DNA from: an uncultured Candidatus Puniceispirillum sp.
GTDB taxonomy: Bacteria; Pseudomonadota; Alphaproteobacteria; Puniceispirillales; Puniceispirillaceae
Direction: 5' to 3'
DNA: 64,000 nucleotides
Assembly: GCA_905182545.1 (NCBI GenBank)
Contig: CAJJBY010000009.1
Location: 62,001 to 126,000, forward strand
This document shows positions 4,596 through 29,419 of this stretch, in pieces (the first letter of the stretch is position 1; the number at the start of each line of letters is the position of its first letter). Position numbers and translations under genes: made by a program. Below the pieces are notes generated by a model. That model did not search any database. It saw only the letters and a program-made list of their open reading frames with translations, and was not told the origin of the DNA.

Positions 4596-5123
4596 TTATC
4601 CATCTGACAATGCCAGATCGGAAAATTTGGCTTTGACCGCCGCGGGCAGCCGACATATTTTCGGCCGCGTCCCATCTGCCAACGCGACAAGTCCTATGTC
4701 TACGACAAGTCGGGCAAGAATATGGCGGTTTTCACGATTTATGATTTTTTGTTGTAATTTCAGTGATGCGCCGCCAAGCCGAAGCAAGCTGCTTTCAACA
4801 TCAAGAACATCACCAAAACCAGCAGGAAGATGAAAATCAATCACAATCCGGCGCACAACAAAGCCTAATCCGTCATCGGCAAGCATTGCTGGCTGGTCAA
4901 TGCCAAGACATCGAAGCCATGCTGATCTGGCGCGTTCGGCAAAGGCCAGATATTGGGCATGATAAACAATGCCGCCAGCGTCGGTATCTTCATATTGAAC
5001 ACGAAGCGGGTAAAGATGATTGCCAGCGTCAAACAGGCCATCAAGCATGGCATCGGCACCGGCTGCCAGATTGGCATGATCGAAGGTTCCTGCCCGATTT
5101 TTTTGCCGATCACCCACCATCAT
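4596..5123 (-). CDS. ybgC: Tol-Pal associated acyl-CoA thioesterase YbgC
   Basis: Hotdog motif VQYEDTDAGGIVYHAQYLAFAERAR; tol operon context. Confidence 0.93.
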   Translation of the reverse strand: MMVGDRQKNRAGTFDHANLAAGADAMLDGLFDAGNHLYPLRVQYEDTDAGGIVYHAQYLAFAERARSAWLRCLGIDQPAMLADDGLGFVVRRIVIDFHLPAGFGDVLDVESSLLRLGGASLKLQQKIINRENRHILARLVVDIGLVALADGTRPKICRLPAAVKAKFSDLALSDG

Positions 5124-9904: not shown

Positions 9905-10070
9905 AAGCGGCGGCGACCACCTTAACCGTCGTTGTATCATCCTCTGTGACCTGCTTTGCAGGTGGGTGCCACATAACCAAACCACGGCTCGGCCAGAGGC
10001 AGCTCCCGAGAGAAAATTTATGGCCCCAGGGATTGAATAACTAATCGCGAAAACGCAGCCGTCGCCTAGG
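9905..10070 (-). ncRNA. ssrS: Probable 6S RNA (ssrS)
   Basis: Lies between zapA and the 5-FTHF cyclo-ligase, the usual ssrS position; closing stem GGCGAC/GTCGCC flanks a long imperfect hairpin containing TGGCACCCACCTGCAAAGCAGGT. Confidence 0.6.
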
Positions 10071-10076
10071 CATCAT

Positions 10077-10450
10077 TTAGGGTTTTGTCGCATCAAATGC
10101 AAGCTTTGATGTCAGCTTGGCAATCTTTGTCGCTGCATCTTCCAGAAGCGCCGCAGCCCGATCTTCGGCTGCGTTCGCTTCATCAGCCGATGCGGCTGCC
10201 GCGCGGCCGCTGATGCCGCCGCATTGGATGAGCCATTTGCCGCTGCGGCCGTGCTTGCGCGATCGGCCAGAATAAGTGCCACCATAGCCAGCAACCGCGC
10301 TTCGCCAATCTGGCCAACCGAATCGACAAGCGACTGCATGATCGATTCAACTTCAGCTCCCAAATTGGCAACATGGTCTTCTTCACCGGCACCGCAGCCG
10401 ATCTGATAAGGATGGCCGTTCAACCGGATGGTGACAACTGACTGGCTCAT
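10077..10450 (-). CDS. zapA: Cell division protein ZapA, C-terminus apparently frameshifted
   Basis: MSQSVVTIRLNGHPYQIGCGAGEEDHV...ARLLAMVALILADR; the called ORF ends in basic junk (RQPHRLMKRTQPK), while the neighbouring frame reads AASADEANAAEDRAAALLEDAATKIAKLTSKLAFDATKP*. Confidence 0.8.
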
Positions 10451-10701
10451 TCACTGTCTCCCATGTCGCCAGCATTGGCCGCGCTTGTTTGCGCCGCATC
10501 AATATCGGCAATCACCTGCATGGCTTCGCCAAGCTTGGCCTCAATCCCGCTAACCTCGTCAATCAGCGCAGCAAAATCAGCCTTTGATGGAGTCGCCACA
10601 ATGGCGCTTGAGGCAGACGCCTCGATCGACGATGCAACTGCCGATTCCAATGCCGCAAGGGCATCGCTTAGCTGTTTTTCGGCATTTTGCAATCGCGTCA
10701 T
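10447..10701 (-). CDS. Small coiled-coil protein upstream of zapA (DUF4164-like)
   Basis: 84 aa Ala/Glu-rich helix, overlaps the zapA start. Confidence 0.6.
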   Translation of the reverse strand: MTRLQNAEKQLSDALAALESAVASSIEASASSAIVATPSKADFAALIDEVSGIEAKLGEAMQVIADIDAAQTSAANAGDMGDSE

Positions 10702-11029
10702 TACCTGCCAAATCTCTCTTGCTAACCGTGCTTATTGTTTTCCTATGGCATGCATTACCGCCAAAACAGACAAAACAACAGGCCGGTTTTTTCTCTAGAA
10801 CATAATATGTTACGAACCGAACTTGCCTGATTCACGAATCGAAATAAAGCGCAAAATATGACTTAAGTCAGAAAGACGACCTGTTTGACCACGGTAATCT
10901 TGGCGTTGATGCATTGACGAACGCGCCCAACAAGGGCAAATTGCGGCTCATCAATTACTTGTCGATTATGCCAAAAAAAAACAGCATGATCTTGCCTGAC
11001 ATTCAAACCAGCGATCTTTGGAGGCTACA

Positions 11030-13006
11030 ATGCCGAATTCGTCTCAACGTCAAACAATGGCAAATGCGATTCGGGCTCTTGCAATGGATGCTGTCCAAGC
11101 CGCCAATTCGGGCCATCCGGGCATGCCAATGGGCATGGCCGATGCTGCAACCGCGCTGTTTTGCGACCATCTGAAATTTGATGCGGCCAGCCCTGACTGG
11201 CCTGACCGTGATCGTTTTGTCCTATCTGCCGGACATGGTTCGATGCTGATTTATGCGCTTTTGCATCTTACCGGTTACGAAGATATGACCATCGAGCAGA
11301 TTCGCAATTTCCGCCAGCTTGGCGCCCACACCGCCGGACATCCCGAATTTGGTCATGCCAAAGGCATTGAAACCACAACCGGCCCGCTTGGTCAGGGCAT
11401 TGCCAATGCTGTTGGCATGGCGATGGCCGAACGCCATATGGCTGCACGCTATGGCGGTGATCTGGTCAATCACCACACTTATGTCATTGCTGGTGATGGC
11501 TGTCTTATGGAAGGCGTTAGCCATGAAGCCGCCTCGATGGCAGGCCATATGAAGCTTGGCCGGTTGATCGTGCTGTTTGACGATAACAACATTTCAATTG
11601 ACGGCAGCACTGACCTGTCGACATCGGATGATACGAGCGGCCGGTTCGAGGCCTATGGCTGGCAGGTGCTAAGCTGTGACGGGCATGATATGGACGCCGT
11701 TTCCGCCGCGATTAGCGCCGCCCAAGCCGATGACCGGCCAAGCCTGATCTGCTGCAAAACCATAATCGGCCTTGGTGCGCCAAACAAACAAGGCACATCC
11801 GGCGCTCATGGTGCCCCGCTTGGCGATGCCGAAATTGCGCTGGCGCGCGAAACACTTGGCTGGCCACATGCGGCGTTTGAAATCCCCGCCGATATTCTGG
11901 CCGAATGGCGCGCTGTTGGCGCACATGGCGCGGCGGCGCATCAATCATGGCAAGATCGGCATGCCGCAAGCCAAAACAAAACCGCCTTTGATGCCGCGAT
12001 TGCCAATGATTTTGACAAGGATGTTGCCGCTGCGGTTCTTGCGTGGAAAAACCAATTGGCAAGCGCGCCACAAAAACTGGCAACGCGCGTTGCCAGCCAG
12101 AAAGCCATCGAAGCCATTTTGCCAGCCTGCCCAACCCTATTTGGCGGATCGGCCGATCTGACCGGATCGAACAATACCCGGGTTGCCGATCACACGATTT
12201 TCGATCATGGCAATTATGGCGGCACCTATATTCATTATGGCGTTCGCGAACATGGCATGGCGGCAGCGATGAATGGCATTACCCTTCATGGCGGCGCCAT
12301 CCCTTATGGTGGCACTTTTATGGTGTTTACCGATTATTGCCGCCCATCCATTCGTTTGTCGGCACTGATGGAACAGCGCGTTATCTATGTCATGACGCAT
12401 GATTCTATCGGCCTTGGCGAAGATGGCCCAACGCATCAGCCAGTCGAACATCTTGCCGCGCTTCGCGTGATGCCGAATTTATTCGTATTCCGCCCGGGCG
12501 ATGCTGTGGAAACCGCCGAAGCGTGGCAAACCGCACTTGAGGCCAAAACCACGCCATCAATTCTGGCATTAAGCCGTCAAGGATTGGCGCAGTTCCGGCA
12601 TGGTGATATGGCTGAAAACAAAACCGCAAAAGGCGCTTATGTCGCTGTTGATTGTGACGGCACACGCCAGATCACTTTGCTGGCATCAGGATCCGAAGTC
12701 AGCATTGCCATTGACGCGCAAAAACAGCTTGCCGATAGCGGTATCAACGCTGCTGTTGTTTCGGTGCCTTGTCTTGATCTTTTTGCCATGCAGGATGCTG
12801 CCTATCGGGCGCAGGTGCTCGGCAAGACGCCGCGCATTGCCATTGAGGCTGGGCTGCGGCAAAGCTGGGATTGGCTGCTTGACGAGACTGACAGCTTTAT
12901 CGGCATGACCGGTTTTGGTGCCTCGGCGCCGATTGATGATCTGTATAATCATTTTGGCATTACCGCTGACGCTGTTGTTGCGGCGGCAAAACGCCAACTT
13001 GGATAA
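11030..13006 (+). CDS. tkt: Transketolase
   Basis: ANSGHPGMPMGMADAATALF, GDGCLMEGVSHEAASMAGH and other full-length transketolase motifs. Confidence 0.97.
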   Translation: MPNSSQRQTMANAIRALAMDAVQAANSGHPGMPMGMADAATALFCDHLKFDAASPDWPDRDRFVLSAGHGSMLIYALLHLTGYEDMTIEQIRNFRQLGAHTAGHPEFGHAKGIETTTGPLGQGIANAVGMAMAERHMAARYGGDLVNHHTYVIAGDGCLMEGVSHEAASMAGHMKLGRLIVLFDDNNISIDGSTDLSTSDDTSGRFEAYGWQVLSCDGHDMDAVSAAISAAQADDRPSLICCKTIIGLGAPNKQGTSGAHGAPLGDAEIALARETLGWPHAAFEIPADILAEWRAVGAHGAAAHQSWQDRHAASQNKTAFDAAIANDFDKDVAAAVLAWKNQLASAPQKLATRVASQKAIEAILPACPTLFGGSADLTGSNNTRVADHTIFDHGNYGGTYIHYGVREHGMAAAMNGITLHGGAIPYGGTFMVFTDYCRPSIRLSALMEQRVIYVMTHDSIGLGEDGPTHQPVEHLAALRVMPNLFVFRPGDAVETAEAWQTALEAKTTPSILALSRQGLAQFRHGDMAENKTAKGAYVAVDCDGTRQITLLASGSEVSIAIDAQKQLADSGINAAVVSVPCLDLFAMQDAAYRAQVLGKTPRIAIEAGLRQSWDWLLDETDSFIGMTGFGASAPIDDLYNHFGITADAVVAAAKRQLG

Positions 13007-13092
13007 ACAGACGATACATAAACAGCATAATTTCTAGATGATATCTGGTCAAACCATGATTGGTCAGCCGAACAAACCAAGGAGACAGTCGC

Positions 13093-14100
13093 GTGACATT
13101 AAGATTGGCGATCAGCGGATTTGGCCGCATTGGCCGGATGACACTTCGTGCTTTTCAGGAAATGGGGCATCAGGATATGGAGATTGTGCTGATCAACAGT
13201 CCCGGGCCGGTTGAGACCTCGGCACATCTTTATGAATTTGACTCGGTTCATGGACGCGCTGTCGGCACGGTGACACATGGCGAAGATTGGATGGATGTTG
13301 GCAGTGGCAAAATCCACATGAGCCGCGAGCGCGATCCGGCCAATATTCCGCATGCAGCACATGGTGTTGATATTGTTCTGGAATGTTCGGGAAAATTCAA
13401 TAGCCGCGAAGCATCAGTCGCGCATCTTGCCGCTGGCGCGAAAAAAGTGCTTGTGTCCGCACCATGCAAAAACGCCGATCAGACCATTGTTTTTGGCGTC
13501 AATGACAGCCTTTTAACGGCTGATGCCGATGTGGTGTCAAACGCGTCCTGCACGACCAATTGTCTTGCCCCTGTTGCCAAGGTTCTGGCCGACACTGTTG
13601 GCATTGAAGCTGGCTATATGACGACAATCCACGCCTATACTGGCGATCAGCCAACGCTTGATTCAAGCCATAAGGATTTGCGCCGCGCCCGCGCCGCCGC
13701 CATGTCAATGATTCCAACCTCAACCGGCGCCACAAAAGCTGTTGGCGAGGTTCTGCCGCAATTACAAGGCAAGATGTCGGGATCGGCCATTCGGGTTCCA
13801 ACGGCCAATGTTTCGGTTGTTGACCTGGTGGTCACGACAAGCCGCGATACATCACTTGAAGAAATTAACCAGCTACTCACCGCGGCTGCAAATGGCCCAA
13901 TGAAAGGCGTTCTTGGCATCAATGTGCGCCCGCTTGTTTCGATTGATTTTAACCATGATCCGCATTCTTCGGTTGCCGACCTGACCCAAACAAGCGTATT
14001 GAACAAGCGTTTGGTGCGGGTATTGGCATGGTATGACAATGAATGGGGCTTTTCCTGCCGGATGCTGGATAATGCCGCCGCTATTGGCAAATTTTTGTAA
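13093..14100 (+). CDS. gap: Glyceraldehyde-3-phosphate dehydrogenase, type I
   Basis: LAISGFGRIGR, SNASCTTNCLAPVAKVL active site; GTG start at 13093 preceded by GGAG. Confidence 0.96.
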   Translation: MTLRLAISGFGRIGRMTLRAFQEMGHQDMEIVLINSPGPVETSAHLYEFDSVHGRAVGTVTHGEDWMDVGSGKIHMSRERDPANIPHAAHGVDIVLECSGKFNSREASVAHLAAGAKKVLVSAPCKNADQTIVFGVNDSLLTADADVVSNASCTTNCLAPVAKVLADTVGIEAGYMTTIHAYTGDQPTLDSSHKDLRRARAAAMSMIPTSTGATKAVGEVLPQLQGKMSGSAIRVPTANVSVVDLVVTTSRDTSLEEINQLLTAAANGPMKGVLGINVRPLVSIDFNHDPHSSVADLTQTSVLNKRLVRVLAWYDNEWGFSCRMLDNAAAIGKFL

Positions 14101-14152
14101 ATACGGATAGACCTTTGCTGCAAACCGCAGCTATGCGAACAAGGATTTAGCG

Positions 14153-14719
14153 ATGAAACTCAACGGAAATGCCGTCAAACCCGGCAATGTGATCGAACAT
14201 AATGGTCGTCTTTGGACAGCGGTAAAAGTGGCGCATGTCAAACCTGGAAAAGGCGGTGCCTTTGCCCAGATCGAATTGCGCGATATCCGCGATGGCACCA
14301 AATTGAATGAACGCTTCCGGTCATCAGAAACGGTTGAGCGAGTAATCCTTGATGAAGCTGCCTGTACCTTTCTTTATGACGAAGGCGACCATCTGGTGTT
14401 CATGCATTCCGAAACCTTTGAACAAATCAGCATCGTCAAAGACATGGTTGGCGAGCGCGCTGCCTATTTGCAAGATGGCATGGTTGTGACCATGTCCAGC
14501 CATGAAGGTGATCCAATTTCAGTTGAGCTTCCCGATACGGTTGTGATGGAAGTTGTCGAGGCCGATGCTGTTGTCAAAGGCCAAACCGCATCATCATCAT
14601 ACAAGCCCGCTATTTTGGAAAATGGCGAGCGTGTCATGGTGCCACCACATATCGAGTCTGGTACACGCATTGTTGTGCGGCCAGAAGATGCAAGCTATGT
14701 AGAGCGTGCAAAGAATTAA
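14153..14719 (+). CDS. efp: Translation elongation factor P
   Basis: KPGKGGAFAQIELRDI...FRSSETVERV. Confidence 0.97.
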   Translation: MKLNGNAVKPGNVIEHNGRLWTAVKVAHVKPGKGGAFAQIELRDIRDGTKLNERFRSSETVERVILDEAACTFLYDEGDHLVFMHSETFEQISIVKDMVGERAAYLQDGMVVTMSSHEGDPISVELPDTVVMEVVEADAVVKGQTASSSYKPAILENGERVMVPPHIESGTRIVVRPEDASYVERAKN

Positions 14720-14742
14720 TTTTCAGAGTTACAGGACTTTTT

Positions 14743-15552
14743 ATGGCAACCCGCTCCGCCCTCATTAATGTCATGCACAAGGCGGCCACCGCCGCTAGCC
14801 GCAATATGCTTCGCGATTTTGGCGAAGTCGAAAATTTGCAGGTTAGCCGCAAGGGGCCAGCCGATTTTGTTTCGCGCGTTGACACCAATGCCGAACGCAT
14901 CATCAAGGCTGAATTATCAAAGGCACGCCCCGATTGGGGATTTGAGATGGAAGAAAGCGGCATCACCGCTGGCGCCGATCCTGATGCGCCTTGCTGGATT
15001 GTTGACCCGCTTGACGGCACCACAAACTATCTTCATGGCATTCCGCATTTTGCCATTTCGATTGCTGTTCGCGACAAGGGCAAAATCACCGCAGCGTTAG
15101 TCTTTGACCCGCTTCGCCATGAATATTTCTTTGCCGAGGCTGGATCAGGTGCCTATATCAATGACCGCAGATTGCGCGTTTCCGGACGTCGCCAGATGGG
15201 CGAGTCTATTTTTGCCACCGGCATTCCATTTATCGGGCGCGGCAGTGATGAAGACCATGCGCTTTTTGCCCGCGAATTATTCAATATTATGGGTGTCAGC
15301 GCTGGCGTGCGCCGTTTTGGTTCGGCCGCGCTTGACCTTGCTTATGTCGCCGCAGGGCGCTTTGACGGCTATTGGGAACATGGGTTGAAAAGCTGGGATA
15401 TCGCCGCAGGTATCCTGTTGGTTCGCGAGGCTGGTGGCTTTGTGTCCGACTTTGCGTCGCGCGACCGCGTTTTGCAAAGCGGCGATGTGGTTGCTGGCAA
15501 TCCGGCCATCCATGCCGAATTGCTAAAGCATCTTGCCAAGGCGCGGGCATAG
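14743..15552 (+). CDS. suhB: Inositol monophosphatase family protein (SuhB-like)
   Basis: CWIVDPLDGTTNYLHGIPHFAISI and SWDIAAGILLVREAGG motifs. Confidence 0.93.
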   Translation: MATRSALINVMHKAATAASRNMLRDFGEVENLQVSRKGPADFVSRVDTNAERIIKAELSKARPDWGFEMEESGITAGADPDAPCWIVDPLDGTTNYLHGIPHFAISIAVRDKGKITAALVFDPLRHEYFFAEAGSGAYINDRRLRVSGRRQMGESIFATGIPFIGRGSDEDHALFARELFNIMGVSAGVRRFGSAALDLAYVAAGRFDGYWEHGLKSWDIAAGILLVREAGGFVSDFASRDRVLQSGDVVAGNPAIHAELLKHLAKARA

Positions 15553-15795
15553 GCCCTCTTTCTTTTCCTGCCAGATTTCGGAACACGGCCAAAAGGCTGC
15601 TTGGCTGTTGCTGTCCAGAATCAGGGTGGTTTTTGCGCCCGTGATTGCAACCTTTCATCCGGCAAGACTTGCGAATATTCACAATCCTGCCATTGTTTCA
15701 TGACAAGAAACTGCTTGTGGATTTTCGTGCCTGTCTGGCAGTTGCGATCATCCGCATAAAACTGCCGTGACCGACCATGCCTAGGAGATAAGATC

Positions 15796-16851
15796 ATGGA
15801 AACCAACCCAAGACGTTATCTTGTCAGAATGTTCATCTTTTTGCTTGGGGTTGGCATTATTGCCGCGCTTTTGGCCGCGCCTTTACAAGCCGCCTTTATG
15901 GGAAACCCAGCATTAAATGGCGTTATTCTTGGCGCATTTGGCATTGGTATTCTCTATATCATCCGGCAAACCTTGCGGCTGATGCCCGAACGCAATTGGC
16001 TTCTTGCGGTGAAATCCACTGGCAAGCTTGATCCACCCGAACGCCGCCCCGTTCTTTTGGCAACCGTTTATGCAATGCTGGCAGATTCGCGCCATGATGC
16101 GCAGCTATCGGCATTGTCGCTGCGTTCGGTTCTTGATGGGGTGGCTGCTCGCCTTGATGAAGGCCGCGAAATTTCCCGCTATATGATTGGCCTATTGGTC
16201 TTTTTGGGATTGCTTGGCACTTTTTGGGGGCTGCTTCAAACGATTGGCGCCGTTGGGAATGTTGTGAGTTCAATTGACGCCAACAGCAATAATTTTGAGG
16301 CGATGATGGGGCAATTGCGCATTGGACTTGATGCGCCGCTTTCCGGAATGGCAACCGCATTTTCATCATCTTTATTTGGCCTTGCCGGTTCTTTGATCCT
16401 TGGGTTTCTTGACCTTCAGCTAGGCCAAGCCATAGGTCGGTTTTTTAACGAACTGGAAGATTGGCTGTCGGCCTTTGCGCGGTTTAACGACAGCAGCCCA
16501 TCATCAAACGCCCAACAGAGTGCGCTTGCCAGCGGCATGAGCGAAGAAGCCGCCCGCGCGGTTATGGCTTTGTCGCAATCAATTTCAAATGGCGAGGATA
16601 ACCGCGAACGCCTGCTAGAGCAGGTCTCACAATTGACTGGCACGATGGCGAATTTGAACGAGGCTTTGGCCGATGACCGCCGCATTCGAGAACATCTGGC
16701 GCAGCTAAACGCCAATATCATGCAGCTATCTGAAGATTTGCGCGCTGATCGAAACCGGCAAACCGATATTGTGGCCAGTGAATTACGCGGCCTGTCCTCA
16801 TCAATTGCTGCGATGATTGACGTCAAAACGCGTCGCGGCAAAGGGGAATAG
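15796..16851 (+). CDS. MotA/TolQ/ExbB-family proton channel protein with C-terminal coiled coil
   Basis: Transmembrane helices with GLLVFLGLLGTFWGLLQTIGAVG; C-terminal helical tail; paired with the downstream OmpA-domain gene. Confidence 0.85.
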   Translation: METNPRRYLVRMFIFLLGVGIIAALLAAPLQAAFMGNPALNGVILGAFGIGILYIIRQTLRLMPERNWLLAVKSTGKLDPPERRPVLLATVYAMLADSRHDAQLSALSLRSVLDGVAARLDEGREISRYMIGLLVFLGLLGTFWGLLQTIGAVGNVVSSIDANSNNFEAMMGQLRIGLDAPLSGMATAFSSSLFGLAGSLILGFLDLQLGQAIGRFFNELEDWLSAFARFNDSSPSSNAQQSALASGMSEEAARAVMALSQSISNGEDNRERLLEQVSQLTGTMANLNEALADDRRIREHLAQLNANIMQLSEDLRADRNRQTDIVASELRGLSSSIAAMIDVKTRRGKGE

Positions 16852-16856
16852 CCACA

Positions 16857-18026
16857 ATGGCGCTGGCACGAATTGGCAATGCGCGTCGGGTCGAAAATTT
16901 TACCTGGCCCGGCTTTGTTGACGCCTTAGCAACCTTGCTGATGGTGATCATTTTCGTGCTGATGGTCTTTGTGCTGATTCAGGTAAATTTGGCCTATCGT
17001 GTCTCTGGCCAAGATGCCACGCTTGGCGAGATGCGCCAACAATTAGCCTCGCTTGGCGAGCTGTTGAATATTGAGCGCCGTGCAAGCGCCGATCTTGCCG
17101 CCAATCTGGCGCAAATCACCAACCAGTTAAATGCCAGCAATGCCAATCATGATGAGCTACAAGTCCAGTTGGCAAGCGTGCAAACCGCCATTGCGGCGCG
17201 GAATAGCCAAATTGCAAACCTGACAGCAAAACAGGCCGATACCGAGGCCGCCCTTGCCGCCGCACGGAACAGCCTTGAAGAACGGTTAGGCGCGCTGCAG
17301 CTTGCCGAAGGGCAATTGGCAATGGCACAAGCACAAAACCAGAGCGCCGCCAATCGAATTGACGCGTTGCGCGCCGAAACCACCGCGTCAAAAGCCGAAA
17401 TCGCGCAGATGACCGGCGCCTTGGCCGCCTTGCGGCTTCGCATTGAAGAACTAACCAGCCTTCTTGCCGAAAAAGACCGGCAGACAACGCGTGACAAGGT
17501 CGCCATTACCAGTCTTGGGCGGTCATTGAACAATGCCTTGGCAAGCCGTGTTCAGGAGTTACAACGCTTTCGGTCGGAATTTTTTGGACGGTTGCGTGAC
17601 GTATTGAAAGGGCGCGATGATGTTCAAATTGTTGGCGATCGCTTTGTCTTTCAGTCGGAAGTTCTTTTCGCCCAAGGTCAGGCTGAGATAGGCTCGCAAG
17701 GTGAAGAACAGCTTGCCAAGCTAGCAATTACCCTTACCGATATTGCGCAAAAAATTCCAGGCGACATTAATTGGATTTTGCAGGTCGACGGCCATACTGA
17801 CAATGTGCCAATCCGTGCTGGCCGTTATGCTGATAACTGGGATCTATCAACCGAACGTGCTCTATCGGTAGTGCGCTATTTGAATCAGCAGGGCTTACCT
17901 GCCAGTCGGCTTGCTGCTGCCGGTTATGGCGAATATCAACCGCTTGACGCCAGTGACAGCGATAATGCCCGCCGCAAGAACCGTCGGATAGAGATAAAAA
18001 TCACCCAGCGCGTTACAATAAAGTAA
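16857..18026 (+). CDS. MotB-like protein: N-terminal TM with Asp, long coiled coil, C-terminal OmpA domain
   Basis: WPGFVDALATLLMVIIFVLMVFVLIQ, about 150-residue coiled coil, LQVDGHTDNVPI...LSTERALSVVRYL OmpA/MotB domain. Confidence 0.87.
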   Translation: MALARIGNARRVENFTWPGFVDALATLLMVIIFVLMVFVLIQVNLAYRVSGQDATLGEMRQQLASLGELLNIERRASADLAANLAQITNQLNASNANHDELQVQLASVQTAIAARNSQIANLTAKQADTEAALAAARNSLEERLGALQLAEGQLAMAQAQNQSAANRIDALRAETTASKAEIAQMTGALAALRLRIEELTSLLAEKDRQTTRDKVAITSLGRSLNNALASRVQELQRFRSEFFGRLRDVLKGRDDVQIVGDRFVFQSEVLFAQGQAEIGSQGEEQLAKLAITLTDIAQKIPGDINWILQVDGHTDNVPIRAGRYADNWDLSTERALSVVRYLNQQGLPASRLAAAGYGEYQPLDASDSDNARRKNRRIEIKITQRVTIK

Positions 18027-18088
18027 TTTGGGCCCGCCCTATTTCCGGATCATCATCAAAGCCACCACCCCTGCCAAAAGCTTATATC

Positions 18089-18343
18089 TCAGAGAGAAAT
18101 ATTTCTATGCGCCCAGTTTCTAGCAATCATTTCATCATGCGTAACCAGAACCAAGCCAATATTTTTCTCGCTGGAAATCTTGGCCAGCATGTGAAGCGTC
18201 TCGTGCTGCGTGATTGGATCAAGTCTTGAAGTAGGTTCATCGCATAACAAAATTTGTGGTTTTGTGATTAAGGCTCTGACGATGGAGATTCTCTGCAACT
18301 CACCACCTGACACCTGATTTGGATAGTGTTTCTGCAAACCCAA
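18089..18343 (-). pseudogene. C-terminal fragment of an Opp/Nik-type ABC transporter ATPase
   Basis: QVSGGELQRISIVRALITKPQILLCDEPTSRLDP...VLVTHDEMIARNWAHRNISL; signature and Walker B present, no Walker A half upstream. Confidence 0.75.
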
Positions 18344-18711
18344 ATAACAACCGAGATGTTGAACCCTCAGCCTGGCTTGTCAGCACCCCAATCAGTGCGT
18401 TCGGGTGGGCAAGCCACCACTCACAAGTTTGGGTTTTATTTGTTGCGGCATCTTTGCAACTATTTTGCGTTTATGATCTTTAACACCTCGAGCGTTTAGA
18501 TTAGATTTCTCACAGCACGGAAAAATAGACAGCCGCAAATCCGGATGAAGCTGGCTGAAGGTGTCAGGTGAGAATGACGCGGCACAGTCAAAGGCGCATT
18601 TCAAATCCCAGTAGCAGCGATGTTCAGTGGAAATTTCATGACCCACACAAACACCTGAAATGAAATATGATTGGGCGTTTTGAAACCTAGTAAAAGGTAT
18701 GTTCCCCTCAA

Positions 18712-20532
18712 TCAGACCTTTGGAATTGAAAATTGCAATTCGGCAAGGGTACGGTAGAGCGCCGACTCACCCATCAGTGTTTCATGGTTACCCTCGGCGA
18801 TCAGCCGGCCCCGATCCATCAGCAAAATCCGGTCAGCGCGCACCACAGTTGCCAGCCGGTGCGCAATAACCAGGCTGGTGCGGTCGGTCATTAGATACTC
18901 CAAGGCATGCTGAACCGCCGCTTCAGATTGCGCATCAAGCGCGCTTGTCGCCTCATCAAGCAACAGCAAGCGCGGATTACGCAAAATTGCCCGTGCAATG
19001 GCAATGCGTTGACGCTGCCCCCCTGACAGCCGCACACCTTTTTCCCCAACAAACGCATTATAACCGCCATCGATCGCCATGATAAAATCATGCGCCTGTG
19101 CCTGTTTTGCCGCCGCTACAATGTCGGCATCATTAGAGCCTGGCTGGCCAAATGCGATATTGTCACGAAGCGACGCAGAGAAAAGCGCCGACTCTTGCGG
19201 AACCAAACCGATGTGCGCGCGAAGATCAGCAAGCGAAAGATCATGAAGATCAATGCCGCCAACCCTGACGGCACCACCAATCGGATCATAAAACCGCAAC
19301 AGCAGATGAAAAATGGTTGATTTACCCGCCCCGCTTGGCCCAACAATTGCCACCCGCTCACCCGCCTTAATGCTAAAGCCAACGTCACTGATAGCAGGTC
19401 GGTTCAGTGCCGCCGAATAGGCAAATTGCACGGCCACAAATTCACAAGCCGTCGCAGCAGCTGAATTGATCCGTTGCGGAGCCGCTGGCTCGGGCAGGCT
19501 AGCCTCAGTATCCAGCAACTGGGCAATCCGCTCAGCCGCACCAGCAGCACGCTGCAGGTCACCGGCAAGCTCTGATAAAAAGCCGGTCGAGCTTGCCACC
19601 AGAAAAGCATAGAAAATAAACGATGACAGATCGCCAGCGCTGATCCGTCCAGCCATCAGATCCTGTCCGCCAATCCACAGAATGACGCCAATACCACTAA
19701 AGACCAGAAAAATCACAATGCCGCTTAACAGACCGCGAAGCCGAACCCGCGCAAGACCAGCATCAAGCGATAGATCAACCGCTCGTTCAAAATGCCCTTT
19801 GACATAATCTTCGCGGCCAAAGGCCTGCACCGTGCGAATGGCGCTAACCGTTTCTTCAGCTTCAACCCCGACATCGGCAAGCCGGTCTTGTGCTAATCTT
19901 GAGGCAGCGCGTAACCGGCGTCCCATGAAAATCAGCGGCAACACAACCAGCGGCACAACGATCAACACCACAAGCGACATTTTTGGACTGGATAGAACCA
20001 CCATCACAAGCCCGCCAATCAAAAGCAGGAAATTACGCGCTGCCATTGACAGGGTCGAGGTCATGACCGTTTGGACAATGCTGGTATCGGTTGTAATTCT
20101 GGATAGCACATCACCGGTTCGTGCATTTTCAAACCACCCAGCCGATAAGGTAATGGCATGGCCAAAAATCGCGCGGCGAATATCAGCCAGCACCATTTCG
20201 CCAATTTTATTCACCATGCTGGTGCGAAGATAGCTACCAAAGGCCAAAACCACGGCAATCATCGCTGTCGCCATCACCGCGCGATCAAGCAAGGCAGGGT
20301 CGCGTTTGCCAAGCCCTTCATCAACAAGATAGGCAAGACCACGCCCCATTCCAAGAAGCGCACCAGCAACAAGCACAAGCGCCAAAATGGCAAGCGCGAT
20401 TCGGAGACGATGCGGCTTGAGATAGGGCCAAAAGACGGCCAATAGCTGGCGGCTGGTGTAACGGCGAGTTGTTTCTAATGTCTGATCCACCAAAAATGCT
20501 GTCTGGTGATCAGTTTTCTGCCCGTTATTCAT
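18712..20532 (-). CDS. ABC transporter, fused permease/ATP-binding (MsbA-like)
   Basis: 606 aa, N-terminal TM domain, GPSGAGKST, LSGGQRQRIAIARA. Confidence 0.95.
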   Translation of the reverse strand: MNNGQKTDHQTAFLVDQTLETTRRYTSRQLLAVFWPYLKPHRLRIALAILALVLVAGALLGMGRGLAYLVDEGLGKRDPALLDRAVMATAMIAVVLAFGSYLRTSMVNKIGEMVLADIRRAIFGHAITLSAGWFENARTGDVLSRITTDTSIVQTVMTSTLSMAARNFLLLIGGLVMVVLSSPKMSLVVLIVVPLVVLPLIFMGRRLRAASRLAQDRLADVGVEAEETVSAIRTVQAFGREDYVKGHFERAVDLSLDAGLARVRLRGLLSGIVIFLVFSGIGVILWIGGQDLMAGRISAGDLSSFIFYAFLVASSTGFLSELAGDLQRAAGAAERIAQLLDTEASLPEPAAPQRINSAAATACEFVAVQFAYSAALNRPAISDVGFSIKAGERVAIVGPSGAGKSTIFHLLLRFYDPIGGAVRVGGIDLHDLSLADLRAHIGLVPQESALFSASLRDNIAFGQPGSNDADIVAAAKQAQAHDFIMAIDGGYNAFVGEKGVRLSGGQRQRIAIARAILRNPRLLLLDEATSALDAQSEAAVQHALEYLMTDRTSLVIAHRLATVVRADRILLMDRGRLIAEGNHETLMGESALYRTLAELQFSIPKV

Positions 20533-20711
20533 TCATCAACCCCAATTTTTGTTCACCTAGCCCGCTAACCATTTAATTTCTAGGTCGTGGGGCTTGCTTA
20601 TCATCGCTATAGGGGATATACCACCAGCGCTGTTTGTTGGCGAGGATCATTCTGCTGCATAGCAAATCTAGCATCACGAACAGGCAGTTAAGCATAAAAC
20701 CGGAGACCGGC

Positions 20712-20933
20712 ATGAAAAAAGATATTCACCCAGATTACCACGAAATCACCGTTGTAATGACCGATGGCAGCGAACATACAACGCGCTCGACTTGGGGAAA
20801 GCCTGGCGATGTGTTGAAACTCGACATTGACCCAAAGACCCATCCAGCATGGACCGGCCAGCATCGCATCCTTGACTCAGGTGGTCAGGTTGCCCGCTTT
20901 AACAAGCGCTTTGGCGGTCTTGGCATCAAATAA
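20712..20933 (+). CDS. rpmE: 50S ribosomal protein L31
   Basis: [20 protein letters not shown]...[25 protein letters not shown]. Confidence 0.96.
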
Positions 20934-20974
20934 GGCTGTACCAGCCCAATTTCAAACCCAATCTACCCATCGAC

Positions 20975-21001
20975 AAAAGCCAGCATTTGCTGGCTTTTTT
21001 C
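20975..21001 (+). terminator. Rho-independent terminator downstream of rpmE
   Basis: AAGCCAGCA-TT-TGCTGGCTT followed by a T run. Confidence 0.85.
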
Positions 21002-21092
21002 TTGTCTTATCTCTTTTGATGGCAAGGGGCCACGCCGCAACCGAACAGGCGGCGCATTTGTGGCGGCGGTTTATGCTAATAACCGGCGAGGA

Positions 21093-23765
21093 TTAATCGG
21101 TTTGGCGGGTTTTGATCGTGGCCTGTGCAGCGGCAAGACGCGCCGCAGGAACGCGGTACGGCGAACAAGACACATAATCAAGACCGACCTTTTCAAAGAA
21201 CAGAATTGAGTCGCCATCGCCACCATGTTCACCGCAGATACCAAGCTTGATATCAGGGCGGGTTTTGCGGCCACGCTCAACCCCCATTTCAACCAAACTG
21301 CCAACCCCTTCAAGGTCAATCGACACAAACGGATCAACCGGATAAATCTCTTTATCAGCATAATCATGAAGGAAAGATCCGGCATCGTCACGGCTGATGC
21401 CAAGCGAGGTTTGCGTCAAATCATTCGTCCCAAAGGAGAAGAATTCGGCCTCAACCGCCAGATCAGCAGCACAGATTGACGCACGGGGCAATTCAACCAT
21501 TGTGCCAACAAGATATGAAATAGTGACGCCCGTTTCAGCCATAACCGCAGCCGCAGCAGCATCAATCTCGGCCTTGCAAAGCGCAATTTCCCGTGCCGTT
21601 GCCGCAAGCGGAACCATCACTTCAGGAATTGGTGATGCGCCAGTGTTTTTGGCAACAGCGCAGGCCGCCTCAAAAATGGCGCGGGCTTGCATTCGGCAGA
21701 TTTCCGGATAAGTCACCGCCAAGCGGCAGCCACGATGACCAAGCATCGGGTTGGTCTCGGCAAGTTTGACCGAGCGTTGACGCGCCGTCTCGATTGTTAC
21801 GCCAGCGGCGGCGGCAACTTCGGCCAATTCATCGGCCGAATGCGGTAAAAACTCATGTAATGGTGGGTCAAGAAGCCGGATGGTGACTGGCAAGCCAGCC
21901 ATGATGGTGAATAATTCTTCAAAATCACGGCGCTGCATTGGCAATAATTTGGCAAGCGCCAATTCACGACCTTCAGTATCGGCAGCCATGATCATCTGGC
22001 GCATGGCAATGATGCGGTCAGCATCGAAAAACATATGTTCGGTTCGGCATAGGCCAATGCCCTGCGCGCCGAAATCAACGGCAACACGCGCCTCAGTTGG
22101 GGTTTCGGCATTGGTGCGCACTTCCATGCGGCGCACCTCGTCAGCCCAGCCCATAACGCTGGCAAAGGCACCTGACATTTTTGGCTGGATCGTATCGACT
22201 ATACCGGCATAAACCTCGCCGCTAGTGCCATCAATGGTAATGACATCACCTTCGACCAGAACCTTATCGGCGATTAAGACCTTGCCGCTTACCTCGTCAA
22301 AGCGCACATCACTTGCACCCGAAACACACGCCCGCCCCATGCCACGAGCAACCACCGCCGCATGGCTTGTCATGCCGCCACGCGCCGTCAGGATACCAGC
22401 GGCAGCATGCATACCGTGAATATCTTCAGGGCTGGTTTCAAGACGAACCAGGATCACCGCCTCGCCGCTAGCCGCCAATTCCTCGGCACGATCGGCACTC
22501 AGCACAATCTTGCCGCATGCAGCACCTGGTGATGCGGGCAGACCGCGTGCCAGAATGACCTTATCAGCATTGGGATCAAGCGTTGGATGAAGCAGCTGGT
22601 CAAGCGAGTTTGGATCAACTCGGCATAAAGCCTCATCACGGGTGATCAGCCCTTCATCAGCCATTTCAACAGCCATGCGAAGCGCGGCTTCGGCAGTGCG
22701 TTTTCCACTACGGGTTTGCAGCATATACAGCACGCCCTGCTGGACGGTAAATTCAAGATCCTGCATATCGCGATAATGCGCCTCAAGCTTTTTGCGAACC
22801 GCATCAAGCTGATCAAAAGCCGCTGGCATGGCTTCTTGCATCGACAAAGAATCGCCGCCGCCTTTTTCTCGGGCAGCCGCCGTTAATGGTAATGGCGTGC
22901 GAATACCGGCAACAACATCTTCGCCTTGCGCATTGATCAAAAACTCGCCGTAAAAGCTGTTTTCACCGGTTGATGGATCGCGCGTAAACGCAACACCAGT
23001 TGCGCAATCATCACCCATATTGCCAAAAACCATGGCCTGAATATTGACCGCTGTTCCCCATGCCGCAGGAATGTTATTCAGCCGCCGGTAGGTGATGGCG
23101 CGGGTATTCATCCAACTGGTAAACACCGCTCCAATCGCACCCCAAAGCTGTCCCCACGGATCTTGCGGAAAGCCGGTGCCAGCCTCATCTTGAACGATGT
23201 CCTTGTAGCTGGCGACCAATGCTTTTAAATCATCACCGGTCAATTCAGTGTCTTCATGAACGCCGCGTTGAAGCTTCATATCCTCAAGCGCATCTTCAAA
23301 CAGGCCGTGATCGACCCCCATCACAACATCGCTATACATCTGGATAAACCGGCGATAGCTGTCATAGGCAAAACGCGCATCATTGGCGCGGCTAGCAAGG
23401 CCTTCGACCGTGACGTCATTCAGTCCAAGATTGAGAACCGTGTCCATCATGCCCGGCATCGAGGCACGTGCACCTGACCGAACCGAAACAAGAAGCGGGT
23501 TAGCAGAATCGGCAAAACGGGTGCCGGTTTCATTTTCGATTTTCGCAATGGCGTCACGCACCTGCTGATCTAATGTGTCAGGATAGGTTTTGTCATGGTC
23601 ATAAAAATGCGTGCAAACATCTGTACTAAGGGTAAATCCGGGCGGAACTGGCAGGCCAATACCACTCATTTCGGCGAGATTAGCACCCTTGCCACCAAGA
23701 AGATTGCGACGCGATGCATCGCCATCGGTTCCGGTTTTGCCAAAATTATAAACCCATTGTGTCAT
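21093..23765 (-). CDS. ppdK: Pyruvate, phosphate dikinase
   Basis: 890 aa; LTARGGMTSHAAVVARGMG and CGEHGGD motifs. Confidence 0.97.
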   Translation of the reverse strand: MTQWVYNFGKTGTDGDASRRNLLGGKGANLAEMSGIGLPVPPGFTLSTDVCTHFYDHDKTYPDTLDQQVRDAIAKIENETGTRFADSANPLLVSVRSGARASMPGMMDTVLNLGLNDVTVEGLASRANDARFAYDSYRRFIQMYSDVVMGVDHGLFEDALEDMKLQRGVHEDTELTGDDLKALVASYKDIVQDEAGTGFPQDPWGQLWGAIGAVFTSWMNTRAITYRRLNNIPAAWGTAVNIQAMVFGNMGDDCATGVAFTRDPSTGENSFYGEFLINAQGEDVVAGIRTPLPLTAAAREKGGGDSLSMQEAMPAAFDQLDAVRKKLEAHYRDMQDLEFTVQQGVLYMLQTRSGKRTAEAALRMAVEMADEGLITRDEALCRVDPNSLDQLLHPTLDPNADKVILARGLPASPGAACGKIVLSADRAEELAASGEAVILVRLETSPEDIHGMHAAAGILTARGGMTSHAAVVARGMGRACVSGASDVRFDEVSGKVLIADKVLVEGDVITIDGTSGEVYAGIVDTIQPKMSGAFASVMGWADEVRRMEVRTNAETPTEARVAVDFGAQGIGLCRTEHMFFDADRIIAMRQMIMAADTEGRELALAKLLPMQRRDFEELFTIMAGLPVTIRLLDPPLHEFLPHSADELAEVAAAAGVTIETARQRSVKLAETNPMLGHRGCRLAVTYPEICRMQARAIFEAACAVAKNTGASPIPEVMVPLAATAREIALCKAEIDAAAAAVMAETGVTISYLVGTMVELPRASICAADLAVEAEFFSFGTNDLTQTSLGISRDDAGSFLHDYADKEIYPVDPFVSIDLEGVGSLVEMGVERGRKTRPDIKLGICGEHGGDGDSILFFEKVGLDYVSCSPYRVPAARLAAAQATIKTRQTD

Positions 23766-23773
23766 GTTTCTAT

Positions 23774-25844
23774 CTAGCCTTCTATTTTCGTGAAATCGGC
23801 CACAGCCAACATTTTTTCACGAATCATTGCCAATAGCCCAAGTCGATTCAGGCGGATCGCCGAATCATCATCATTCACGACGATTTTTTCAAAAAATAAA
23901 TCAATGGGGGAACGCAGCGCACCAAGCGCGGCAAGCTGCAACTCAATATTGTCTTGATTCACAACCATTGTCGATAGAGGTTCAAAAAGTGCTTTTTCAG
24001 TTTCGGTAAATAGCGCCGGATCAGATATTGCAGCAAAGGCAGTTTTGGCCTTTTTTTCCTCGGCAGCAAGGATGCTGCTGACCCGCCGCCAACCAGCCAT
24101 CAATCCAGTGCCATCGGCGGCGGCCAAAAAGCCAGCAAGCGCTGACGCGCGTGTCGCCATCAAGCAGATATCATCACCATCATCATCGGCCAAGGCCGCG
24201 GCAACCACATCATGCCGCATTTTCTGATCACGAAGATAGCCGCGAAGCCGGTCACGAATGAAGGGCAACAGATCAGCATCAACTTCGGCAAAGCCATAGC
24301 CGCTGGCACCCACCTGCAAAATCTTGCCAAGCGGGATGGTTAGCTGTCCATCAACAATGATGCGGATAACGCCCAAGGCCGCACGGCGAAGCGCAAACGG
24401 ATCTTTTGATCCAGTTGGTTTGGCATCAATGCCAAAAAACCCGACAAGCGTGTCAATCTTGTCCGCCAGCGCAACAACCATGGCTTCGGGTGTTGCTGGC
24501 AAATCATCGGCTGGGCCTTGCGGCCGGTAATGCGCGGTGATGGCGTCACAAACGGCTTTATCTTCGCCGCTAGCAGCCGCATAATAGCCACCCATGATGC
24601 CCTGCAATTCGGGAAATTCACCAACCATACCCGTGACAAGATCAGCCTTGGCAAGACGGGCGGCGCGTGATGCGGCTTTTTGGTTGGCAGATGGCATATG
24701 CGGCGCAATGGCGCTTGCCAGCGTTTCCATCCGGTTTGCCTTATCGTGGATCGAGCCAAGCCCCTCATAAAATGTGACATCGCCGAGCGCGGGAAGATAG
24801 CTTTCCAGTTGGCTTGCCTGATCCTGTTGCCAGAAAAATTCGGCATCAGCCAATCGCGCCCGCAACACACGCTGATTACCTGCGATAATCACCTTATCGC
24901 GCGCCGCATCTCCAAGCCGATTTGATAGAACGATGAAATTTGACGAGAATTTTCCATCAGCATCACTAAGCGTGATGTATTTCTGATGCGTTGCGATTGT
25001 GGCCTGCAGCAATTCTGGCGGCAGCACCATGAACCGGTCTTCGATCTGCCCCATAAGCGGCGTTGGCCATTCGACCAAACCAGCAATATCGGCAAGATAG
25101 CTTCCGAGTTGAGCCTCATTAAGATGGCATGACTGGCTGGCGGCTAATTTTTTAGCCTCGCTGATAATCGCATCATGGCGTTCATCTTGGTCAAGCATCA
25201 CATAGCCAGCGCGTAATCTGGCCTTTACATCATCAAGGCTGGTAACGCCGGTAAGGTCAATATCGTCAGGTGCCTCAAAATAATGGCCACAGCTAGTCGC
25301 CCCAAAATTGAGTTGCATCGCCGCCACCCAGATCCAGCGCACCGGCAAGCGGCCTGCCATCAAACAGAATATTGATCCGGTAAAGCGGGCGCACCCAGCG
25401 GAATTTACCGCGACCCCATCGTTGGCTTTTTAGCCACGGAAAATGGTTTAAAATATCAACAATGATCGGCACCAACAGCTTGGCTGTATCACCGCCGGTG
25501 ATTTCGCTTCGCGCAAACAAGAACCGGCCTTTTGGCGTATCTTCTTCAACAAGTTCTTCGCGGCTGACCCCTGCCGAATTCAAAAAACCAGCAATCGCCG
25601 CCTCGGGTGCATCAACACGCGGCCCGCGTTTTTCGATAATACGATCCGGCTGCGATGCAGCAATATTGGTGGCATAGGCTAGTAAATGACGCGGCGCACA
25701 AAGGCCGGTTGCCACACTGTCATAATGCCAGACGCCAAGCGTTGTTAAGGCCGATTCAATCAGCCGCGCCAGATCACGGCCAGCACCAGCCTGCATGCGG
25801 GCAGGAATTTCTTCTGAGACAAATTCAATTACCAGATCAGCCAT
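23774..25844 (-). CDS. glyS: Glycyl-tRNA synthetase beta subunit, frameshifted into two ORFs
   Basis: N-terminal ORF 25293-25844 ([17 protein letters not shown]...[19 protein letters not shown]) continues in another frame as [18 protein letters not shown] (23774-25363). Confidence 0.92.
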
Positions 25845-26751
25845 TGGTTGTGGTCTCCGTTATTTCCATCCATGCTTCGCAGCACCCTTTGGCCAAGTTC
25901 CGAACACGCCCGATATAGGCGGCGCGTTCAGTCACCGAAATCACCCCACGCGCATCAAGCATATTAAACAGATGGCTGGCTTTCATACATTGATCATAGG
26001 CCGGCAATGCGAGTGGCGTTTCCAGCCCCAGCAAGCGGCCACATTCAATTTCGGCATCACGGAAATGCCCAAGAAGCATATCCGTATCGGCATGTTCAAA
26101 ATTCCAGCCAGAAAATTCAACCTCAGCGCGTTTGAAAATATCGCCGTAGGTTTTGCCGCCTTCGGCCGCTGGCACACCATCCCAATCAAGGTCATAGACA
26201 TTTTCGACACCCTGAATATACATCGCCAGCCGTTCCAACCCATAGGTGAGTTCAAGCGGCACCGGATTACATTCAATCCCGCCAACCTGTTGGAAATAGG
26301 TGAATTGGGAAATTTCCATGCCATCACACCAGACTTCCCAACCAAGGCCCCATGCGCCAAGCGTTGGGGATTCCCAATCATCTTCGACAAATCGGATATC
26401 ATGCTTGTCGGGGTCAAGCCCGATTGCCTTTAGCGAGTCTAGATACAGCGCCTGCGATTCCGCTGGTGATGGTTTGAAAATCACCTGAAACTGGTAAAAA
26501 TGCTGCATCCGGTTTGGGTTTTCACCATAGCGCCCATCCGAAGGCCGCCGCGATGGCTGAACATAGGCCGCGCGCCAAATATCATCGGGGCCAAGCGAAC
26601 GAAGCGTTGTTGCCGGGTGAAATGTACCCGCGCCAACCTCCATGTCATAGGGCTGCAGGACAACCGCGCCCTGCTTTGCCCAATGGCGTTGTAAATTTAG
26701 AATAATCGACTGGAAATCGGTTCTAATTTCGTCGCTTTGTGATGTTGGCAT
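25837..26751 (-). CDS. glyQ: Glycyl-tRNA synthetase alpha subunit
   Basis: [41 protein letters not shown]. Confidence 0.97.
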
Positions 26752-26826
26752 CCGTCACGATTCCTATTGCAAAAGATGCACGGAAATTAGCCGGAAACCA
26801 TATCAAAAGGCAAGCTGTTGCTGCCG

Positions 26827-27069
26827 CTAATAGGGACAGTTTTCCCGATCACAGGTCTCGCCGCTTACCCATGCCCCGCAAATTGTGCATTCCTGCAAAT
26901 CAACCGATGCGTCATTCTGGTCTTTTTTCGCCGCCCCCGCCGCGTCGCCATTTTTGTCTAATGGCTGATCAGCACGGTTTTTCTGGCGTGCCTCGATAAA
27001 CCGAAATGCCATCCAGACAAGCCAGATCAGGGCAAAAAGACCAAGGATTTTCGGAAGTGAGAGAACCAT
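26827..27069 (-). CDS. Small membrane protein with C-terminal Cys motif
   Basis: One TM helix then CTICGAWVSGETCDRENCPY. Confidence 0.6.
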   Translation of the reverse strand: MVLSLPKILGLFALIWLVWMAFRFIEARQKNRADQPLDKNGDAAGAAKKDQNDASVDLQECTICGAWVSGETCDRENCPY

Positions 27070-27189
27070 TATTCAAGCGTCCTTTAAAGGCGTGATGCTA
27101 CCGGCGTATGCTGGTTTTGCGTAAAGCCAGCCATTGGTCTGCCAGCAAGCAGCAAATATGGCGCTATCCTGACATAACCGGTTTGGCTT

Positions 27190-28020
27190 TTACAGCCCGA
27201 AACGCGAAAAATAAGCACGCTCAATCGCAAGATCGGCGGTTTCTTGAACAAGATGGCTGCTCATTGCCGGAAGTCCAAGCGGCAGGAATTTGCGCTTTGG
27301 CTCAACAAACATCACGTCAGTGTCATCGCCAAAGCGTTGAAGCAATGTTTGGCGACATTCACCAAGCCCGTCAATCAATCCCAATTCAAGCGCACGTTGG
27401 CCTGTCCAGAACGCACCGCTGAATAATTCATCATGTGCGCCTTTCAGCCGTGATCCACGACGCTGTTCGATATGGCTGATAAATTGATTATGGATATCAG
27501 CCTGCAATCCTTTCAGCCGGTCAATTTCTTCATCGCGTTCAGGCTGAAACGGATCAAGCGTCATTTTGGCCTCTCCAGCGGTGTAAACCCGCCGGTCAAT
27601 GCCAAGCTTGGCAATGGCTTTATCAAAACCGAAACCAGCCGATATCACCCCAATAGACCCAATCACCGATGCCGGATTGGCAAAAATTTCATCGGCTGAT
27701 GCCGCCAGCCAATAGCCGCCACTCGCCGCCACATCCTCGCAAAAAGCCAAAACCGGCACATCGGCGCGGTTGGCAAGGTCACGAATTCGCTGGCCAATCA
27801 ATGATGATTGCACCGGCGAGCCTCCAGGCGAGTTAATGATGATGGCTACCGCCTTGGCACGCTTGATCGAAAAGGCCTTTTTCAATTGCGGCTCAACCGA
27901 TTCAAGCGATAGGCCGCGCCGCCCAAGACTGCCCGATTGCGAGATCACACCGCTTAAGCGCACCACCGGCACAACCGACCTGCGCCGCCGCCAAAACATT
28001 ATTTTGGACAAAAGTCCCAT
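27190..28020 (-). CDS. S49 family signal peptide peptidase (SppA/SohB-like)
   Basis: INSPGGSPVQSSLIGQRIR and VAASGGYWLAASADEIFANPASVIGSIGVI. Confidence 0.93.
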   Translation of the reverse strand: MGLLSKIMFWRRRRSVVPVVRLSGVISQSGSLGRRGLSLESVEPQLKKAFSIKRAKAVAIIINSPGGSPVQSSLIGQRIRDLANRADVPVLAFCEDVAASGGYWLAASADEIFANPASVIGSIGVISAGFGFDKAIAKLGIDRRVYTAGEAKMTLDPFQPERDEEIDRLKGLQADIHNQFISHIEQRRGSRLKGAHDELFSGAFWTGQRALELGLIDGLGECRQTLLQRFGDDTDVMFVEPKRKFLPLGLPAMSSHLVQETADLAIERAYFSRFGL

Positions 28021-28061
28021 TTCCCCTATTTCCCTTCATCTGGCATCACTGCCGGTCACGC

Positions 28062-28880
28062 CTAAACCCTGCGGGCAGGATGCACCATATACAGGCCTTG
28101 ACCATTCATAATGCGGCTAGCAGCTTCGGTAAAGCTGCCATCATCATTATGCATGATAAGACCGGGTAAAATTGCGCCCGGGCCAGACACCGCCTTGCGC
28201 ACCTGAATGATCACCCGCCCAGCCGGCACCATTGGCCGCGGCCAAAGCGGGAATTGTAGAACTTCTGAAGCACCTGCCACGGTAAAGAGATGGATCAATT
28301 CATCAGCCCGATCAGCCCGGCAAATAAAGCTGATCCGTCCACGCGGTTTTGCAGCCCACATTGCCGATGCAACCCAATCACCAAGCGCCAAACCTTCGCC
28401 AATGTGCGCCAAAGCCCGCCGTTTGTCGCGCGGCCTTGTGCCGGTTGCGTAATGATAGGGCGGGTTACTAACAACATGATCAAAACTGCCCGCCAGAACC
28501 GATGGCATTTTGACAATATCATCGCGCAGAATACGAAGCCGGTCATCAAAACCATTGGCCGCGACATTCCGCTGCGCCAGTGCCGCCATCACCGGATCAA
28601 TCTCAATCGCGGTTATCTGCACCGCATCAAGCCGCCGTGCCAAGCACAGGCTGACCCCGCCAACCCCTGCTCCCATATCTAGAACACGGCCACGATTCAC
28701 CCCAATCGCCGCCGCCAGAAGCACCGCATCAGTGCCAACACGAAACCCACTTTTTGGCTGCATAACCGACACGGTTTTGCCAAGCAAATGATCATGCGTT
28801 ACCGCCAGATCATCAAGGCCATCAGGCGGTGCGCCATCGCCTGTTTTGGCATCATTTCCGGTTGTCGGATCTTGGCTCAT
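28062..28880 (-). CDS. TrmN6-like N6-adenine methyltransferase
   Basis: VLDMGAGVGGVSLCLARR and SNPPYHYATGTRP (NPPY). Confidence 0.9.
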   Translation of the reverse strand: MSQDPTTGNDAKTGDGAPPDGLDDLAVTHDHLLGKTVSVMQPKSGFRVGTDAVLLAAAIGVNRGRVLDMGAGVGGVSLCLARRLDAVQITAIEIDPVMAALAQRNVAANGFDDRLRILRDDIVKMPSVLAGSFDHVVSNPPYHYATGTRPRDKRRALAHIGEGLALGDWVASAMWAAKPRGRISFICRADRADELIHLFTVAGASEVLQFPLWPRPMVPAGRVIIQVRKAVSGPGAILPGLIMHNDDGSFTEAASRIMNGQGLYMVHPARRV

Positions 28881-28949
28881 GTTTTTGTCACCCTTATCAG
28901 GGGCTGGAGCGTCTGGCTTTGCTGCCAGCCGCTGGACAAACGACCATGA

Positions 28950-29165: not shown

Positions 29166-29419
29166 GAAGCCGCATCATGCCGCATTTTTGGCGAATTACC
29201 AAGCGTTGCAACGACAAAAGTCGCCGTGGGTTGGCCTTTTTCCTTGCTAGGCGGTTATACGGCATCGTAATGAATGAGGAGAGATTTTAGACAGGTCATC
29301 TACGTGCGCCGCCAATGGCTAGCGCGATGAAGCTGTCGTCAAAAAGCCAAATGGCTTTAATTGCGCAAATACATATTTTCTTTAGGAAGATGGCAATAGC
29401 CATTTGGTGAGTTGAAAGA

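Follow-up and report, generated by a model that had tools for sequence, protein, structure and literature searches.

Two adjoining genes in a stretch of 64,000 nucleotides from an uncultured Candidatus Puniceispirillum sp. (the window) encode a member of a genuine, conserved family of non-flagellar motors composed of known building blocks. Gene A (15796-16851, plus strand, 351 aa) codes for a channel subunit of the MotA/TolQ/ExbB family and gene B (16857-18026, plus strand, 389 aa), which begins after a gap of 5 nt, for a MotB-like subunit of the NCBI family PRK09039; together they very probably form an ion-driven motor. An earlier note on this DNA had placed both genes at these positions. Its proposal of an undescribed system had to be given up, because B belongs to a curated family (PRK09039), the pair is annotated in Sinorhizobium meliloti, and probable orthologues have been overexpressed in Komagataeibacter hansenii (PMC6570709, PMC6315621).

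The assignment of gene A relies on a Pfam profile search, a fold match and an alignment of 39 homologues. The MotA_ExbB profile (PF01618) scored 26.2 bits at a cut-off of 22.9, which places A in the superfamily, and four hydrophobic helices were computed from the protein sequence (approximately residues 5-40, 32-63, 125-157 and 183-214); the channel helices described in the earlier note are thus present. The TM3 channel motif LLVFLGLLGTFWGLLQT (residues 133-149; 16192-16242, plus strand) is invariant from G138 to L146 and at T149 in 40 sequences. It aligns with the GLFGTVWG motif of TolQ/ExbB, and T142 occupies the position of the ExbB/TolQ channel Thr. Within the TM4 channel motif LDAPLSGMATAFSSSLFGLAGSLILGFL (residues 178-205; 16327-16410, plus strand), P181, M185, F189, S192, G195, L196, G198, L200 and G203 do not vary in the alignment, and N37, G51, W68 and E221 are likewise invariant in 40 sequences. 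The patterns GLLGTFWGLLxT (TM3) and PLxGMxTAFSSSLFGL (TM4) are invariant or nearly so across the A homologues. A cytoplasmic C-terminal helical tail (residues 224-351; 16465-16848, plus strand) is predicted to contain helices at 244-289 and 294-349, with low model confidence. Since the tail ranges from 11 to 177 residues among homologues, it is no fixed part of the protein.

A single-chain model of A (mean pLDDT 71.8, pTM 0.54) was used for a fold search, which returned ExbB as the top match, followed by ZorA (8vvn) and TolQ, all with a probability of ~1.0; flagellar stators were weaker matches. A sequence search of solved structures with A gave nothing but unrelated helical bundles, and A reached none of the NCBIfam cut-offs (MotA1 13.7 vs 303.8 bits, ZorA_2 18.1 vs 100). 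A tree built from the channel region places the 15 A proteins (support 78/79) and TolQ/ExbB (99/98) in separate groups; the support for the A group is modest and, due to the shortness of the region, the deep branching is poorly resolved. A profile search of the assembly detected two MotA_ExbB genes, namely TolQ and A. The tol genes lie at ~97-5123 of the window on the minus strand, apart from the A-B pair, as had been claimed.

Gene B scored 379.6 bits with the NCBIfam model PRK09039.1-2 (NF006543, titled 'peptidoglycan-binding protein'; cut-off 305) and is thus a full member of this family, distant members of which share 36-48% identity with it. One hydrophobic helix (residues 14-52) was computed from the protein sequence, in agreement with the single N-terminal TM helix noted earlier. 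The helix as delimited here (residues 17-45; 16905-16991, plus strand) starts with WPGFVD, of which W17, P18, G19, V21 and D22 are invariant in 38 sequences. Asp22 (codon 16920-16922, plus strand, read in FVDALATLLMV) is the candidate ion-carrying aspartate; it takes the position of the MotB proton-path Asp, as had been suggested, and is conserved in 97-100% of homologues. Loss of this Asp or of the channel residues in homologues, which would have spoken against the earlier proposal, was looked for, and the residues were found conserved in approximately 40 homologues.

Following the membrane helix, B is predicted to form a long periplasmic helical rod (residues 46-250; 16992-17606, plus strand), modelled as a single helix over residues 20-250 in the single chain (model mean pLDDT 79.5, with a block >90 over ~80-190). 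Of the coiled coil expected for this part, the long helix was retained in the prediction, but heptad periodicity was not significant in a simple test. The rod measures 95-337 residues among homologues (median 173) and is therefore no fixed ruler; at 1.5 Å per residue even the shortest could still span to the wall. The C-terminal OmpA-like peptidoglycan-binding domain (residues 261-385; 17637-18011, plus strand) was confirmed by the Pfam OmpA profile (62.7 bits, cut-off 27.2), by the residues H313, D315, N327, R334, R376 and R377, which are invariant in 38 sequences, and by a fold search, in which the periplasmic domains of MotS, PA0833, PomB and MotB were the nearest solved structures. The polar channel residues in A and the membrane Asp in B, by which motors of 5:2 type are recognised, are thus both conserved; these residues together with the fold support the motor mechanism well.

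At a threshold of E 1e-20, 198 of the 289 alphaproteobacterial genomes contained PRK09039, against none of the 14 named controls, Caulobacter among them. A phylum-wide sample contained it in 112 of 398 genomes, seven of which lie outside Alphaproteobacteria, and a Desulfobacteraceae contig also bears the A-B pair. The family thus occurs in about two thirds of the sampled alphaproteobacterial genomes, plant symbionts included. A and B adjoin each other in nearly all loci examined, including loci beyond Alphaproteobacteria with unrelated neighbours, and as the neighbours differ there, A-B is taken to be the minimal unit. A is the constant partner of B, mostly in the order efp-suhB-A-B across the class. 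A core envelope function fits the frequency of B in this class and its position beside housekeeping genes; since approximately 30% of the sampled alphaproteobacterial genomes are without B, the pair is not universally needed.

The neighbours were counted in 43 A loci, and all counts are lower bounds, because a simple ORF caller misread some high-GC loci. Two conserved upstream genes are considered to stand outside the motor: efp (14153-14719, plus strand; 24/43 loci) and a suhB-like inositol monophosphatase gene (14743-15552, plus strand; 30/43), which ends 243 bp upstream of A. Further upstream, tkt and gap are often present, and an ABC exporter, mostly convergent, accompanies A in 30 of the 43 loci. 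The neighbours suhB and ABC exporter named by the earlier note are therefore present, but suhB is no random neighbour, given the conservation of efp-suhB-A-B across the class. Between B and the exporter, a C-terminal fragment of an ABC-transporter ATPase (18089-18379, minus strand) was observed, apparently a decayed gene, and no near-identical copy of it was present in the relatives compared. Promoter and terminator scans gave results no better than shuffled sequences. A phage or plasmid origin of the pair was rejected, as A matched no phage records and B matched only five rhizobial megareplicon records. Two further observations concern the surroundings. A small lysozyme-like gene (30520-30957, minus strand) has, by eye, a phage-type look in a core-gene setting of the window, and near A-B in a non-alphaproteobacterial genome (L171, 12197-13156) a tandem repeat encodes CDLKGIVVWLH units, the spacing of which looks like that of a CRISPR-type array read as protein.

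Possible links to function come from two other species. In S. meliloti Ak57 the gene order is thiamine phosphate synthase (thiE), a Sel1-repeat gene, inositol monophosphatase (suhB), A, B and ABC exporter, where the annotation reads 'MotA/TolQ/ExbB proton channel family protein' for A and 'peptidoglycan-binding protein' for B. On the same record, genes for pyruvate kinase, for a DUF1036 protein and for a 605-aa DUF882 protein are arranged as would be expected of SMc04005 (pykA), SMc04006 and SMc04010; SMc03999 (DUF465) and SMc03998 (regulator) fit the expected order as well. SMc04006 is RgsB, and SMc04010 is RgsC, for which a length of 605 aa is reported (PMC7327166). RgsF (SMc03995) contains a TPR and six Sel1 repeats, is periplasmic and essential, localizes to the growing pole and the septum, and is the sole Rgs protein substantially conserved beyond Rhizobiales (PMC7327166). 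From the locus order we infer that the Sel1-repeat gene is rgsF, an essential growth-zone gene, and A and B would be SMc03993 and SMc03992. An RgsF-like Sel1 gene was found in six of the 43 sampled A loci in addition to S. meliloti, and is absent at the locus of this genome. Neither A nor B is named in the main text of the RgsA pulldown paper, and a literature text search for SMc03988-SMc03993 found no phenotype.

In flagella-less K. hansenii, overexpression of genes termed 'motA' and 'motB' led to elongated cells and increased colony spreading, and GFP fusions were polar (PMC6570709, PMC6315621). The reported proteins have 348 aa ('motA') and 321 aa ('motB'), the latter being 46-48% identical to alphaproteobacterial relatives (PMC6570709, PMC6315621), which resembles the identities between distant PRK09039 homologues and the present B. 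Like A-B, they are encoded by adjoining genes, comprise a 4-TM A and an OmpA-type B, and occur in a non-flagellated host (PMC6570709). By size, topology and reported identities, they are probable orthologues of A-B. Cell elongation can follow unspecifically from the overexpression of a membrane channel.

The explanation preferred here, which as a whole we consider reasonably probable, is a peptidoglycan-anchored motor serving envelope growth or division. The inner-membrane channel would consist of five A subunits enclosing the membrane helices contributed by a pair of B subunits (5:2). Protons, or sodium, would pass Asp22, and B would turn relative to A. The long helical rod of B would traverse the periplasm, and the OmpA domain of B would grip the peptidoglycan, so that the motor may pull on, turn or sense the cell wall. 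Working in parallel with Tol-Pal but independently of it, the motor would most likely help the alphaproteobacterial envelope to grow, to divide or to be kept mechanically sound. The analysis establishes the two genes, the conservation of their channel and peptidoglycan-binding residues, their genetic linkage and their independence from flagella and Zorya, whereas the 5:2 stoichiometry, the flow of ions, the rotation, the binding of peptidoglycan and the role in envelope or division are inferred. While the motor itself is considered well founded, its part in envelope growth or division is given slightly less than an even chance and should be read as a reasoned guess. If the pair does drive wall growth or division, Alphaproteobacteria would possess a further energised envelope machine.

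A narrower form of this proposal, and a Ton-like one, involve a third gene. Of 30 non-SAR116 alphaproteobacterial loci, 25 have gene C inserted between suhB and A (for example L056:6346-7575, L067:11057-12187 and L074:7124-8008). The gene C product has what looks like a signal peptide, a long stretch rich in Pro and Ala and, at its C-terminus, an OmpA domain (41-53 bits), which according to the alignment is degenerate and is missing the His-Thr-Asp motif. A gene C profile matched at 47-143 bits, compared to ≤ 31 for the other OmpA proteins of this genome. Gene C is absent from all SAR116 loci, from the S. meliloti locus and from members beyond Alphaproteobacteria; hence, A and B work without it. 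In the narrower form, A-B would be a dedicated alphaproteobacterial cell-wall motor, separate from the Tol-Pal, Ton and flagellar systems, whose PMF-driven, peptidoglycan-anchored rod supplies mechanical work for the wall to grow or divide; in some lineages, gene C and RgsF would be its periplasmic partners. This form is put forward tentatively and appears rather unlikely.

Improbable, in our estimate, is a Ton-like accessory energiser of transport or of an outer-membrane process, with gene C as the driven partner. The frequent position of gene C next to A, its Pro/Ala-rich stretch, which recalls TonB and TolA, and the fold of A, nearest to ExbB, speak for it. However, the gene C product is apparently secreted, its OmpA domain is degenerate, a TonB domain is absent and no linked receptor gene was found. 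Membership in TolQR/ExbBD proper was rejected, based on the OmpA-type B, the position of A outside the TolQ/ExbB clade and the fact that no tolA- or tonB-like gene was found in the A-B operon.

That A-B serves this organism as its flagellar stator, under a different name, is highly improbable. No flagellar genes were seen within the window, as the earlier note had remarked, but the genome is not free of them: a flagellar cluster including FlhA (805 bits) is located on another contig (C8, ~10000-30000; loci L112 and L113). Neither MotA nor MotB_plug gave a match that exceeded its cut-off anywhere in the assembly (2.0 Mb, 13 contigs, 98.4% complete), and the same combination of FlhA without a MotA match was found in a second genome (G296), both of which favour the stator reading, as does the proximity of the B OmpA domain to that of flagellar MotS/PomB. 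At 98.4% completeness, however, the stator may simply be missing from the assembly, and incompleteness may also account for G296. Stronger weight is given to the relatives. In flagellated SAR116 relatives, the channel genes fall into classes by score (TolQ ~127, MotA 95-104 and A 25-31 bits), and the flagellated sisters G181, G093 and G257 each have a MotA of their own (95-104 bits) in addition to A, whereas eight FlhA-negative relatives (G302, G304, G306, G310, G312, G318, G328 and G331) keep A with B adjoining. The MotA1 score of A is far below its cut-off and B has no MotB_plug match. A flagellar stator was rejected on this basis; orthology to a characterised stator pair was not obtained with any model tried, and the earlier view of a non-flagellar, ion-driven pair distinct from tolQR is upheld. 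Among the SAR116 genomes, G257 (contig C32, L120), G289 and G298 encode, in addition to TolQ and A, one more MotA-like protein (~294 aa, 53 bits).

A Zorya-like phage-sensing motor, in which B would sense peptidoglycan damage and the A tail would signal to an effector encoded elsewhere, is very unlikely. In its favour, PADLOC gives ZorA as the best match of A (49.6 bits) and ZorB as that of B (95.6 bits), the A model matches 8vvn, and B is assembled from the same elements as ZorB. Against it, true alphaproteobacterial ZorA proteins reach 176-538 bits when scored with their own models; the tail required in Zorya, where ZorB binds peptidoglycan (PMC11890865), comprises only 11 residues in one A homologue; no gene like ZorC, D, E, F or G was recognised in any neighbourhood (judged from translations and similarity clusters); and most of the class shares the pair at a fixed housekeeping locus instead of carrying it on a patchy island. 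Membership in Zorya was rejected for the low ZorA score, the optional tail and the lack of adjoining effector genes; the likeness in parts without adjoining effector-like genes agrees with what had been noted before. A search with the ZorA1 model at E 1e-12 gave at least one match in 44 of the 192 alphaproteobacterial genomes; many of the matching sites adjoin a PRK09039 gene. The PADLOC ZorA model PDLC00597 matches the partner gene of PRK09039 at E 1e-12. Loose searches with Zorya models could thus miscount the A-B family as phage defence in Alphaproteobacteria.

Three known systems share features with A-B. TolQ/TolR and ExbB/ExbD are similar in the fold of A and the GLxGTxWG channel motif; they differ in that B possesses an OmpA domain and a long rod in place of the TolR/ExbD domain, A falls into a separate tree group and Tol-Pal is present in the window in addition. 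MotA/MotB and PomA/PomB share the Asp-bearing single-helix partner with a periplasmic OmpA domain, but A resembles ExbB/TolQ more closely, no plug was matched in B, the pair is retained in genomes without flagella, and relatives own a separate MotA. ZorA/ZorB are alike in the channel core, the MotB-like partner with an OmpA domain and the helical cytoplasmic tail on A, whereas in the present family A scores far lower, its tail is short and optional, effector genes are absent and the pair resides at a fixed core-genome locus.
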